DNA of 64,000 nt from Prochlorococcus sp. MIT 1223. Lineage in GTDB: Bacteria > Cyanobacteriota > Cyanobacteriia > PCC-6307 > Cyanobiaceae. Location: NCBI RefSeq assembly GCF_034092465.1, contig NZ_CP139303.1, forward strand, positions 248,001-312,000, in the 5' to 3' direction. The notes under the pieces are model-generated. The model saw only the letters and a list, made by a program, of their open reading frames with translations. It was not told the origin of the DNA and ran no database searches. The translations under genes were made by a program, and so were the position numbers. Each line of letters opens with the position of its first letter. Position 1 is the first letter of the stretch. Positions 30,793 to 35,025 of the stretch are shown here, piece by piece.

Positions 30793-31335
30793 TCACCAAT
30801 TTTCAAGTTGTTCGTTAAGCCAATCATCAGTATTATTTTGGTCCTTAGAGCTATCAGTAGATTGTTTGGCAATGTTATCATTTCTGTAAATATATTCTGA
30901 ATTTACAGCAGAAGAATCATCAGAAGTTCGAGGTCTTGCTTTTTGAACTATCTTGTATGGGATAGATACAGTTGGAGAAGGATCTCTTGGATCTCTTTCA
31001 ATGTAATTAAAACTAGAAGAATCCGAGAAATTGTCAGCATAATTCGTCTGACCTAAAGGTTGCTCAATGTATGGCGTTTGATATTCCGGTTTTGAGATCA
31101 CACGTCTTGATTGAAAGGTATTAGAATTAGTATCAGGTAAATTAACAATAATAAATGAAGATATAAATCCTAAAGTACTACCTATAGCTGTTAAGTAACC
31201 TAATTCTAGAGGGGGAATTGTCCAAACTAATACTTTTAAATTCGACTTCTTTTCTAAATTTAGTGTTGAAATTAATAATATAAGTGAAAATGGTAATATT
31301 GAAAGTGTAAACAAAAAAGTATTAATCGATCTCAT
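30793..31335 (-). CDS. Membrane protein with long polar tail, unknown
   Basis: The 180-residue protein has two N-terminal membrane helices (about 5-25 and 45-65). A long polar, Ser/Asn/Asp-rich tail follows, ending WLNEQLENW. The tail looks disordered apart from short conserved-looking pieces such as DPRDPSPTVSIPYK near residue 120. Its start overlaps the ubiX stop by four bases, so it is translationally coupled to ubiX. I do not recognise a named family. Confidence 0.65.
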   Translation of the reverse strand: MRSINTFLFTLSILPFSLILLISTLNLEKKSNLKVLVWTIPPLELGYLTAIGSTLGFISSFIIVNLPDTNSNTFQSRRVISKPEYQTPYIEQPLGQTNYADNFSDSSSFNYIERDPRDPSPTVSIPYKIVQKARPRTSDDSSAVNSEYIYRNDNIAKQSTDSSKDQNNTDDWLNEQLENW

Positions 31336-31937
31336 TTCCTACCTTTCCATCTTTTTATTGGAGCTAGATCCTCTCCAATTGTATCAAAAAATCTAACAAC
31401 TATAAATTCAATCATATCTTCTAATGTTTCTGGGTTTGTATACCAGGCAGGCATAGGTGGTATAATCTTTGCTCCAGATTCCTTTATGGCTATCATATTT
31501 CTTAAATGAATCAAGCTTAGTGGACTCTCCCTTGGTGCTATTAATAATTCTCTACCTTCCTTCAAATGTACATCAGCACATCGTTCAATTAAATCCAAAG
31601 AATAACCAGATGATATTCTCCCAAGTGTTCCCATAGAACATGGAATTATTGCCATCGCTTTGGTTTTAAAACTTCCACTAGCTATTGCTGCTGAATGGTC
31701 ATTCCATTTATAACACTTAAGTTTTCCTGTATATATGTTTAATCTATTTCTCCAGAATGTTTCTTGCTTAACAGAGTCTATGGGTATTTTGATATTACGT
31801 TCAGACAAGAAGACTTCGTATGCTCCTTTACTTAAGATTAGATAAACTTCTTTTTGGTTCGCAAGTAAAAGTTCTAACGACTTCTCGCCTAGCTGTAATG
31901 CTGAAGAACCTGTAATAGCAAGAATAATTGGACTCAT
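31332..31937 (-). CDS. ubiX: Flavin prenyltransferase UbiX
   Basis: UbiX makes prenylated FMN, the cofactor for UbiD-type decarboxylases in quinone synthesis. The 201-residue protein shows ITGSSALQLGEKSLELL (flavin loop), PCSMGTLGRISSGYSLDLIERCADVHLK in two parts near residue 105-132, APRESPLSLIHLRNM near 138, and PPMPAWYTNP near 162. Length is normal. The gene overlaps its neighbours on both sides by one and four bases. The presence of UbiX fits plastoquinone-related metabolism. Confidence 0.94.
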   Translation of the reverse strand: MSPIILAITGSSALQLGEKSLELLLANQKEVYLILSKGAYEVFLSERNIKIPIDSVKQETFWRNRLNIYTGKLKCYKWNDHSAAIASGSFKTKAMAIIPCSMGTLGRISSGYSLDLIERCADVHLKEGRELLIAPRESPLSLIHLRNMIAIKESGAKIIPPMPAWYTNPETLEDMIEFIVVRFFDTIGEDLAPIKRWKGRK

Positions 31938-34255
31938 TAATTACTTATAGATACGGTTACAGGTGCTTGCTGTGTAACTTTAATATCTGCTTTAGTCATA
32001 TCTTCTTGAGTATTAATCTCTAAATCAATCTGATTCCTTAATAAATCAACCTTTACAATTTTGACGGTTATTTTATCGCCTAACTGATAGGTTTTTTTGT
32101 ATTTTCTGCCTATAAGAAGTGTTTGTCTTGATCTGTACTCGTACCAATCGTCATTTAACGTACTTACGTGAACAAGTCCTTCAATTTTAAGATGATCCAA
32201 TTCAGCAAAGAAGCCATAACTTTGAACTCCTGTTATATAGGCTTCATGGTTCTTATTTATAACCTTTAGTGCCTCTCTTGATTTGCTCATTGAAATCAAT
32301 CCATCATAGAATATATTCAACTTCTGTGTACTTTTAGTAATTGTATCTAGTGAGTTTTCATTTATCAAAGAATTAAATGTATTCAATGTTGATGGTGTAA
32401 ATAAGTCATAGTCTATAGAATTCCATGAGTCCTTCCTTCCCACGAGTAATTTTTTCGCTTCTTTACTTTTCTTTTTTAACTTTGCTTCTTTTAGCAGAAG
32501 AACAATGGTTCGTTGATTTAAAAGATCTAAATAACTACTAGAAGGACAAATCCATGGAGATTGATTGCTATATTGTATGAATTGATCATTTAACAAATTA
32601 CTATCATTTTTTTCCTTAATTTCTTGTAAAGATCTACAAATAACAAATCTTTTATGTTTTGTAGACTGTTTAAGTATTTTGTATAATATTCTCTTATTGG
32701 GGTTATCTTCTATTGTAGTTAATAGCTCTGATGGTTCTACATAGCCGTTCTCGTCAAGATCAATCTTTATATTTAAAGAAATTGCTGATTTAATTACTTC
32801 ATTAATTGAATTTTGATCTATATTTTGCAAATAAGTGGAAATAGTTGGTATTCCATAAGCTCTAGAATGAAAATGCCAGATAGAGTTTGCAGTCTTAATG
32901 AACTCTCTTAAAACGCAATTCGGATCGGAATTATCAAATTTACTATCCGATCCAAAATAATCTCTAAGTGGATTATATATTCTTAATTCAGTTAACTTAT
33001 CAATATTAGGTATTTCTAAATCTAATTCTATATTCTTAGTATTATGCCTATGTAATTGCGTACTACAGAAAATAATTGTTTGTATTTGAGTAATATGATC
33101 TTTAATTGGTTTGAGTATTTGCGGAATATTTCGTGCCTTTGGTTTTCTATTAGCAACTGCTTGAAGTTGATCCTTGTTTACTGATGCAACAGGTCTAATT
33201 CTACTCAAAAAGAATTCCCAGTCCTTAATTGATCCATTACTGTCTAAGTCTATTGCGAGAGTAATTGCCTCATTAATCTCGCCTACTTCAAATTTTGATG
33301 CTTTTATGAGTTCTTGGTTAAGAAGAGGTCTCCATTTATTGCCAAGACAAATAGATTCTCCTCTTTCCTTTATCCATTCATCTAACTTTCCTCCTTGATT
33401 AATTCTTTCAGCAATTGCGGTTGAGTGTATCCAAATTCTAGTACCTCCCTCTTGCTGTTGAGATGAAATTGCTGGAAGTATTGGAGAATTAACTGATTGC
33501 CAACTAGAAAGAAGGAGGCATGCTTGATCTGTAAGATCAACTCTATTTGTCGTTGATAAACTTTTAAGAATTGCTTTTGGACTTGGTGTATTTTCCTGTA
33601 AGTTAGACTTAGTTAGAAGAATATTTTCGTCTCCTTCATCACCTTTGTCTAAAGGTAAAGACCTAACAACTGTACCTTCAGCTGAGTATTGTGCTATAGG
33701 GTACTTATTAATCTTAACTTCAACTATATTATTTAATTCATCTTCTTTTAGAAATTTCTTATCTTTATCGCTTAATTCTATATCTTCCAATAATCTATCA
33801 TCTAGAGGGTTGGCTATTAGTTTGCTTTCAGATTGCCTGATTGTTGATATTAAGGATGAAGTATTTCTTTCTAGAATGCATAGAACAGATCCTTCTGGTG
33901 ACTTACGTCTATGACCTTCTTTATGTAATCTAACGAGTACACTATCTCCATGCCAAGCGTGATTCAATGAATGTTCTCTTATATAAATATCTTCATGGTC
34001 ATCTTCTGTATAAGCGAAACAATAACCTTTACTGCTACATCTAATCTTTGCTTTTATATTATTAGTATTATCTGAAAGTTTTACATTATATAATTCATCA
34101 ATATCAATAATATCTAGTTTAGCAAGGGCCTTTAATGCTATATCAAGTTTAATTTTTAGATCCTTTTTTGTTAATTTAAGAGCCTTTTCAAGCGTTTTTA
34201 TTTCTATAGTCTCATCCTTACTCAAAAAGCTAAGAATATTCCGAATAGTAATCAT
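31937..34255 (-). CDS. RNB-like (ribonuclease II/R family) protein lacking the acidic motif
   Basis: The 772-residue protein has the order of an RNase R: N-terminal RNA-binding region with a CSD-like segment near 75-130 (YIREHSLNHAWHGDSVLVRL), a central RNB-like domain, and a C-terminal S1 domain near 660-750 (GVQSYGFFAELDHLKIEGLVH). The catalytic motif of four aspartates (usually RDFDDA) is not visible. The corresponding part, near RVDLTDQACLLLSS at residue 235, lacks it. It may bind RNA without being a nuclease. It heads an operon with ubiX. Confidence 0.8.
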   Translation of the reverse strand: MITIRNILSFLSKDETIEIKTLEKALKLTKKDLKIKLDIALKALAKLDIIDIDELYNVKLSDNTNNIKAKIRCSSKGYCFAYTEDDHEDIYIREHSLNHAWHGDSVLVRLHKEGHRRKSPEGSVLCILERNTSSLISTIRQSESKLIANPLDDRLLEDIELSDKDKKFLKEDELNNIVEVKINKYPIAQYSAEGTVVRSLPLDKGDEGDENILLTKSNLQENTPSPKAILKSLSTTNRVDLTDQACLLLSSWQSVNSPILPAISSQQQEGGTRIWIHSTAIAERINQGGKLDEWIKERGESICLGNKWRPLLNQELIKASKFEVGEINEAITLAIDLDSNGSIKDWEFFLSRIRPVASVNKDQLQAVANRKPKARNIPQILKPIKDHITQIQTIIFCSTQLHRHNTKNIELDLEIPNIDKLTELRIYNPLRDYFGSDSKFDNSDPNCVLREFIKTANSIWHFHSRAYGIPTISTYLQNIDQNSINEVIKSAISLNIKIDLDENGYVEPSELLTTIEDNPNKRILYKILKQSTKHKRFVICRSLQEIKEKNDSNLLNDQFIQYSNQSPWICPSSSYLDLLNQRTIVLLLKEAKLKKKSKEAKKLLVGRKDSWNSIDYDLFTPSTLNTFNSLINENSLDTITKSTQKLNIFYDGLISMSKSREALKVINKNHEAYITGVQSYGFFAELDHLKIEGLVHVSTLNDDWYEYRSRQTLLIGRKYKKTYQLGDKITVKIVKVDLLRNQIDLEINTQEDMTKADIKVTQQAPVTVSISN

Positions 34256-34359
34256 TTTACAATGCTCCTTGATTTGATACAGGTTAAATAATGGATAAGT
34301 TCAATTGTAATTAAATGTCGATAACAAAAGGGAATTAATCATTTTATTCAAGTTGATAG

Positions 34360-34659
34360 TCATAAGGATTGTATCTCTTTTTGTTCCATTAATGCATTTC
34401 TCAAAAGGGTTATCCCAAGATATATAAAAATAACAGCGGCTAAGGCTTCAAGTAGTTCCTCTGGAAAGAGTGATGATATAGAACCACCAGCGAGAGCTCC
34501 TATAAGGCTAGTAATGATGAGAGCTAATGAAGAGCCTAAAAAAACTGCATAAGGTTTATTGGTTGATCCACTTAAAGCAAAAGTGGCTAGCTGGGTCTTA
34601 TCTCCTAACTCAGCTAAGAATACAGTGGTGAAAATGGATAATAATAAAGTAAAGTCCAT
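34360..34659 (-). CDS. Half-size GDT1/TMEM165 family cation exchanger
   Basis: The 99-residue membrane protein is a single repeat of the UPF0016/GDT1 family, with the signature AELGDKTQLATFALS near residue 16 and helices at about 3-20, 35-55 and 70-88. Full-length members such as Mnx of Synechocystis carry two such repeats and export Mn2+ or Ca2+ across thylakoid membranes. Two half genes lie side by side here, so they probably form a heterodimer (hemi-exchangers). It ends the pair, nine bases after its partner. Confidence 0.88.
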   Translation of the reverse strand: MDFTLLLSIFTTVFLAELGDKTQLATFALSGSTNKPYAVFLGSSLALIITSLIGALAGGSISSLFPEELLEALAAVIFIYLGITLLRNALMEQKEIQSL

Positions 34660-34668
34660 TTATTAAAA

Positions 34669-35025
34669 TTAGTTAGAAGAAAAATAAGTTTGCAATGATT
34701 GAAAACCAAACCATAGGCCTAATGACATCATAATAAAAGAAGAGATAAAACTAATTCTTACTTGAGAAATCTTCTTAGAAAGCCAACTACCGAGTATTAC
34801 GACAAAAAGTGTTGAGGATATTAATGCTAATGCAGCTCCAGCAAAAACCACAGCCGGTTTTCCAGATTTAGCTGATAATAGTAATGTTGCTATTTGTGTT
34901 TTGTCGCCTAACTCGGCTATAAAAACACTTATAAAAGTTGAGGTAAATATAGCAAAAAAACCGTCAGATAGTTTTTCTTTACTCGTTTCTGACAGATCGC
35001 TAGTATCTTCATTATTTTTAGTCAT
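34669..35025 (-). CDS. Half-size GDT1/TMEM165 family cation exchanger, partner
   Basis: The 118-residue protein is the companion repeat, with a polar N-terminal tail, FIAELGDKTQIATLLLS near residue 36-52 and further helices near 57-80 and 90-112. The motif E-x-G-D-K-T is intact, as in its partner. It lies first in the two-gene unit. Mn2+ supply to photosystem II would fit its context near a photosystem-type small gene, but cation specificity is inferred from the family. Confidence 0.88.
   Translation of the reverse strand: MTKNNEDTSDLSETSKEKLSDGFFAIFTSTFISVFIAELGDKTQIATLLLSAKSGKPAVVFAGAALALISSTLFVVILGSWLSKKISQVRISFISSFIMMSLGLWFGFQSLQTYFSSN

Follow-up and report, generated by a model that had tools for sequence, protein, structure and literature searches.

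Zam of Prochlorococcus sp. MIT 1223, an RNB-family protein with a replaced active site, and the shortened catalytic Rnb of the same genome

Zam, the acetazolamide resistance protein (A1543 in Synechococcus PCC 7002), has as its hallmark that deletion leads to acetazolamide resistance and low phycocyanin. Thomas et al. (2022) described Zam as a cyanobacterial clade of RNB proteins that is related to RNase R and carries degenerate active sites, and concluded that it is no nuclease (PMC9145284). The same report describes two cysteines in the first cold-shock/OB domain (CSD1), C73 and C79 in Synechococcus PCC 7002, that are redox-active and needed in vivo, a lower phycocyanin synthesis when Zam is missing, and a purified, aggregation-prone PCC 7002 protein for which neither nuclease activity nor RNA binding was seen (PMC9145284). 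In Synechocystis, the zam gene is given as sll1910 in a review (PMC10989914). A similar situation is described for the fungal pseudonucleases Ssd1 and Sts5, in which an RNB fold without the catalytic Asp is combined with conserved cold-shock domains (PMC8934651, PMC8097288); yeast Ssd1 is reported to be an RNB protein without enzymatic function to which RNA binds at the outer side of these domains (PMC8934651). However, the fungal proteins are of independent origin, from Dis3L2, and channel-blocking insertions are a feature of Ssd1. The core finding for the gene described here, that it encodes a Zam with a degenerate RNB active site, is already in print, and Prochlorococcus is not mentioned in the accessible text of the Zam paper (PMC9145284). 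The added value of the present analysis is in three observations, a complete rewriting of the catalytic pocket in the family to which this organism belongs, a lineage of Zam that retains three Asp, and a second RNB protein, Rnb, that is stripped of its N-terminal part.

The window, that is, the whole stretch of DNA that was analysed, covers 64,000 nucleotides of the Prochlorococcus sp. MIT 1223 genome. Only two RNB genes were found in this one-contig genome of 1,795,922 bases, zam and the separate catalytic gene rnb, and both are located in the window (Table 1). The zam open reading frame is intact and has an ATG start and 772 codons. An initial annotation, made from the letters of the sequence, had assigned to the product the CSD-like start and the S1 end of an RNase R, and this was borne out by Pfam, which identified, in order along the protein, OB_RNB (2.3e-19), CSD2 (1.6e-10), RNB and S1. 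The profile check against PF00773 that had been proposed at that time gave a full RNB match, spanning profile positions 1-325 of 326, yet the catalytic residues are missing from it. Because of the E-values and coverage of these domains, the assignment of Zam to the RNB superfamily is not a matter of chance. When compared with the curated RNase R model TIGR02063, the protein scored 184.4 bits, below the cut-off of 597.85. A structure prediction had also been suggested; AlphaFold2, supplied with an alignment of 105 of the 113 distinct Zam sequences described below, returned a model (mean pLDDT 90.4, pTM 0.89) in which the RNase R fold is kept. This model matched RNase R structures 7dcy (Z 34.2 over 608 residues), 8cdu (Z 33.3) and 5xgu (Z 32.2), and the top Foldseek match by E-value was 8cdu, an RNase R on a 30S degradation intermediate. 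Thus, domain order, model and structure comparison all gave the OB/CSD - RNB - S1 architecture of Zam. Known Zam proteins and the window protein are alike in this domain order, in the degenerate RNB site, in the two CSD1 cysteines and in their presence beside a catalytic Rnb.

Table 1. Positions in the window of the zam and rnb genes, of domains and sites of Zam, and of neighbouring elements.
Feature	Position	Strand	Basis
zam, non-catalytic RNB-family protein, 772 aa	31937..34255	minus	ORF, Pfam, AlphaFold2 model, RNase R fold
Shine-Dalgarno-like AAGGAG, 9 bases 5' of the zam ATG	34265..34270	minus	sequence read
Zam CSD1 (first cold-shock/OB domain), residues 67-131, contains the redox cysteines	33863..34057	minus	Pfam OB_RNB 70-125
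Zam cysteine pair, C73 to C79	34019..34039	minus	reported as essential in Synechococcus PCC 7002 Zam (PMC9145284)
Zam RNB domain, residues 238-589, catalytically empty	32489..33544	minus	Pfam PF00773 6.7e-40
Former four-Asp loop of Zam, residues 246-262, now CLLLSSWQSVNSPILPA	33470..33520	minus	alignment to E. coli RNase R
Zam C303, at the place of RNase R active-site Tyr324	33347..33349	minus	alignment; Cys in 57/67 of the family
Former TSPIRRY motif of Zam, residues 566-581, now SPWICPSSSYLDLLNQ; R572 equivalent is S574	32513..32560	minus	alignment
Zam S1 domain, residues 671-747	32015..32245	minus	Pfam S1 1.7e-10
UbiX-like flavoprotein gene, 3' of zam	31332..31937	minus	Pfam Flavoprotein 7.1e-36
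rnb, catalytic RNB-family protein, RNB and C-terminal S1-like barrel only, 449 aa	48662..50011	minus	Pfam RNB 9.3e-63 only; AlphaFold2

In RNB nucleases, four Asp bind metal, a Tyr stacks on the 3' end and an Arg holds the backbone. None of these residues is present in the window Zam: in the alignment to E. coli RNase R, positions D272, D278, D280, D281, Y324 and R572 correspond to S250, P258, L260, P261, C303 and S574, respectively. The earlier remark that the four-Asp motif could not be seen in this 772-aa protein was therefore correct, and it extends to the active-site Tyr and Arg as well. RNase R of E. coli, B. subtilis and Mycoplasma genitalium and the window Zam are alike in the whole fold (Z 32-34), but no catalytic residue is left in the latter. 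We also considered that the catalytic acids might only be displaced in the alignment, an outcome that would have spoken against the initial annotation, and this was rejected. The former loop, SSWQSVNSPILP, is flanked by predicted strands 246-249 and 262-268 and contains no acidic residue, which excludes a shift of the acids to a nearby loop position. We conclude that the window protein is almost certainly Zam and no RNB nuclease.

To place this protein among its relatives, 300 genomes of the window's family and 194 genomes of its class were searched at an E-value of 0.001, and Zam matches were detected in 272 and 192 of them, respectively (a few matches in the class were weak and may be Rnb); among good-quality genomes of the family, a match was present in 195 of 197. 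From these, 117 Zam loci were extracted, which corresponded to 113 distinct sequences when identical ones were counted once; of these, 67 came from 44 genus codes of the window's family and 46 from elsewhere in the class. All 67 distinct family members lacked all four Asp, and the initial question of whether the catalytic loss is shared by relatives is thereby answered positively for those sampled in the family. In the 46 sequences outside the family, no Asp was retained in 19, one in 11, two in 11, three in 5 and four in none. The other two catalytic positions differed even more between these groups: Arg572 was kept in 1/67 within the family vs 43/46 elsewhere in the class, and Tyr324 in 0/67 vs 27/46. 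Replacements in the family were highly uniform (D278 by Pro in 67/67, D280 by Leu in 62/67, D281 by Pro in 60/67, Tyr324 by Cys in 57/67 and Arg572 by His in 43/67), and P258, W308, K385, N580 and Q581 were each invariant (67/67). Thus, unlike known Zam proteins, those of the window's family also lack the Tyr and the Arg, possess new invariant residues in the pocket and have an invariant C126 in CSD1. Scattered acids do occur in the former loop across the family (0, 1, 2 or 3 of them in 17, 27, 21 and 2 of the 67 sequences), none of them at the four catalytic positions. At the level of single residues the alignment of this loop is uncertain, whereas the invariance of the motif holds regardless of it. 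Pocket columns were better conserved than the rest of the RNB domain in the window's family (median 2.37 vs 1.88 bits, p 1.7e-4 in a Mann-Whitney test uncorrected for kinship), and in other cyanobacteria the difference was not significant (p 0.22). The seven Zam sequences of genus code g17, whose RNB match reaches only 52-60 bits, were analysed both with and without the remaining rows.

A different pattern was observed in the family coded f24, the Elainella, Drouetiella and Oculatella group. All 20 of its Zam sequences (L187-L205 and L077) have D272, D280, D281 and R572 in place, with D278 always replaced by Ala, and Tyr324 is present in 15 of the 20. Among 80 named relatives, a set that overlaps the other Zam samples, three Asp were found in 27, two in 21, one in 6, none in 26 and four in 0, and Arg572 in 80/80. 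As three Asp and the Arg are strictly retained in f24, some Zam may be not fully dead, and the view that all of them are dead may be too broad. In addition, two genomes of family f33 (L164 and L165; G386 and G395) contain a single RNB gene, which is of the Rnb type. This finding runs against the printed statement that all cyanobacterial genomes searched contain Zam (PMC9145284). In one f30 genome, too, a single RNB gene was found, although this assembly is a draft of 350 contigs.

Judged from these alignments, the old catalytic pocket of the window's family has been rewritten and is held under constraint. We read the pattern as two probable steps, in which the metal ligands would have been lost while the RNA clamp was kept, and the whole pocket would then have been replaced under selection in the window's family. 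Zam proteins have been described as inactive throughout, with a role in photosynthesis that is under redox control, and our survey shows three states of them: three Asp and the Arg kept, partial decay, and a fully rewritten pocket. These states provide natural before and after versions for testing at what point nuclease activity was lost and by what it was replaced. The family with the rewritten pocket would include the most abundant phototrophs of the ocean.

The two cysteines C73 and C79 of CSD1 are found in the window Zam at the same residue numbers as in PCC 7002, C73 being kept in 64/67 of the window's family and 45/46 of the rest of the class, and C79 in 66/67 and 44/46, respectively. 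A few relatives are without them (C73 is missing in 4/113 and C79 in 3/113 distinct sequences), and the proposed cysteine switch is therefore not universal. A third CSD1 cysteine, C126 (33878-33880), was present in 67/67 sequences of the family and in 0/46 elsewhere. Conservation in the family was highest in the OB and S1 domains, with CSD1 having the top mean of all Zam domains. In 12 close pairs, dN/dS was 0.07-0.20 for the whole zam gene, 0 to at most 0.11 for CSD1, at most 0.12 for S1 and 0.09-0.29 for RNB. These values indicate that zam is not decaying and that strong purifying selection acts on its CSD and S1 domains.

The second RNB protein of the window had been annotated as having an intact motif. 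The motif is indeed present; however, it reads D-E-D-D (D61, E68, D69 and D70), with the second Asp replaced by Glu, as is usual in cyanobacterial Rnb. In all 58 distinct cyanobacterial Rnb rows examined, the catalytic positions are occupied by D, D/E, D, D, Y and R. Pfam, alignment and model agreed that the window Rnb is without any N-terminal RNA-binding module. In its AlphaFold2 model (pLDDT 90.2), residues 1-26 are below 50 and disordered and are followed by RNB and an S1-like barrel. At least 277 residues precede the motif in 44 of the 58 rows and 16-79 in the other 14, which include the window's. The N-terminal module of a full-length Rnb (L164 of f33) consists of a CSD-like domain (PF23163), a winged helix (PF25255) and a double HTH (PF23161), and for two full-length proteins of the window's own family (L064 and L118), Pfam gave only RNB above the cut-off despite approximately 300 residues before the motif. 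Our initial view of the window Rnb, an RNase II of the E. coli kind minus its two cold-shock domains, was corrected, the N-terminal module of full-length cyanobacterial Rnb being different. The best structural match to the window Rnb was 2r7d, an RNase II family protein of Deinococcus radiodurans (Z 43.7, 397 residues, 2.9 A, 25% identity), which likewise consists of RNB and S1 and has no N-terminal cold-shock domains. The match starts at Rnb residue 29 and chain residue 66, and therefore the N-terminal part of the Deinococcus protein has no counterpart in Rnb.

When Rnb length was mapped on a tree built from the Zam of 50 family members, two changes were needed to explain the short form, one in a clade in which 27/27 members have it (SH-aLRT 100) and the other, separately, in genus code g8, all 6 listed genomes of which have short Rnb frames (436-502 aa). 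Strains with short Rnb are, by strain names that we presume to be right, SS120, MED4, MIT 9211, MIT 9301 and MIT 9312, and MIT 9313 presumably has the long one; since the former are short and MIT 9313 is long, the N-terminal loss would postdate the divergence of the MIT 9313 lineage. On the same presumed strain identities, it sits at the base of the clade that comprises Prochlorococcus without the MIT 9313 type. The loss clearly alters the architecture of an RNA-decay enzyme that is otherwise conserved, and recognizing it would aid the reading of data on RNA decay in these organisms. Among the literature matches listed, none was found to report it. The Rnb is reported to be essential in Synechocystis PCC 6803 (PMC3293843). 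We also considered compensation, that is, a Zam more constrained where Rnb is short, but this was unsupported, as dN/dS showed no stronger constraint in short-Rnb lineages. As a separate observation, in the Rnb frames of g17 (L066, L067 and L186; 398 aa) the first catalytic Asp is preceded by just 16 residues, and no ATG is present at the beginning; the start is likely a TTG shortly after rpsR.

Published statements on Anabaena Alr1240 bear on the activity of Zam. This protein is reported in a review to bind and stimulate RNase E and to be able to degrade unstructured RNA (PMC10989914). Its gene heads the transcription unit alr1240-1241-1242 (PMC10287535), and Thomas et al. regard Alr1240 as Zam (PMC9145284). 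In family f32, which may, as a guess, be close to Anabaena, the next two genes after zam on the same strand are a ubiX-like one and another, and rnb comes after rpmG and rpsR (these two named by eye from sequence). Our first guess that Alr1240 is Rnb was dropped on the basis of the transcription unit, the neighbours of zam and rnb in f32 and the statement of Thomas et al., and for the same reasons we consider that Alr1240 is probably Zam. If it is, an active Alr1240 is hard to reconcile with a dead enzyme. The two f32 Zam sequences (L083 and L089) have no Asp at the four catalytic positions.

We propose that Zam is no nuclease and acts as a redox-gated RNA-binding accessory, with catalytic RNB work left to Rnb; to this statement as a whole we give an even chance, and its functional part, redox-gated RNA binding, is put forward tentatively. 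Zam would bind RNA through CSD1 and S1, would be switched by a C73-C79 disulfide, and would hand RNA to, or modulate, a real nuclease, for which RNase E may be the candidate from the literature, or Rnb. Catalytic RNB work would fall to Rnb, which in this clade is reduced to a catalytic core. Against this reading stand the lack of RNA binding by purified, though aggregated, PCC 7002 Zam (PMC9145284), the RNA degradation described for Alr1240 (PMC10989914) if that protein is Zam, and the few relatives in which a cysteine of the pair is missing. Yeast Ssd1 is the best precedent that works in a similar way; its structure 7am1 matched the Zam model (Z 30.1, 605 residues, 3.6 A), and the window Zam, too, has lost the catalytic Asp and retained the fold. 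A division of roles between one nuclease and one non-nuclease had been suggested by the initial annotation, and it fits the two sequences, Zam being without catalytic residues and Rnb keeping them. As Rnb has shed its N-terminal domains, the split fits more strongly than could be appreciated at the time. It can be extended, for streamlined Prochlorococcus, to a division of one function over two chains, in which Rnb would be stripped to an RNB-S1 core without the CSD-like, winged-helix and HTH module, and Zam would be a non-catalytic, redox-gated platform that retains the RNA-binding domains and whose dead pocket would now be a new docking site for Rnb or RNase E; we regard this elaborate version as clearly unlikely.

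A somewhat unlikely alternative is that Zam works by protein contact alone, its RNase R shape docking on RNase E or the ribosome with no need for RNA binding. This would agree with the complete RNase R fold and with 8cdu, the RNase R on a 30S degradation intermediate, as the top Foldseek match, with the reported binding and activation of RNase E by Alr1240 (PMC10989914) and with the reported lack of RNA binding in vitro (PMC9145284), but conservation is highest in the OB and S1 domains, the RNA-binding parts. The old pocket could also have been turned into a new site for a ligand, a metal or redox chemistry, formed by the equivalents of C303, H574 and C569/C570. Cys is found at the Tyr place in 57/67 and His at the Arg place in 43/67 sequences of the family, both in 41/67, and both with a Cys at 569 or 570 in 37/67; however, all 7 sampled g17 members are without the Cys and the His, the window Zam itself has Ser at the His place, and such a site is very doubtful. 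The description of Alr1240, probably a Zam, as active (PMC10989914) and the f24 proteins with three Asp and Arg in 20/20 and mostly the Tyr would suit a Zam that has remained a nuclease by an unorthodox catalytic mechanism, which we nevertheless consider highly improbable: the window's family has lost the active site entirely, and RNase II domains without catalytic Asp are called unambiguously inactive by Ballou et al. (PMC8097288). Finally, that RNB is the least constrained folded part (dN/dS up to 0.29) and that its match drops to 52-60 bits in g17 could suggest that Zam is a relic heading for loss. This is hardly credible in view of its intact presence in streamlined genomes, of its detection in 195/197 good-quality family genomes (E 0.001), and of dN/dS values well under 1 in every close pair, which speak against recent decay.

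In the window, the stop codon of zam and the start codon of the ubiX-like gene share one base (TAATG). A co-oriented ubiX-like gene lies 3' of zam in 57/66 family loci and in 26/44 other loci with enough sequence, and in 0/7 loci of g17. UbiX is linked to quinone synthesis. Upstream of zam, at 34360-35025, are two adjoining half-size genes for GDT1-type cation antiporters of 99 and 118 aa.
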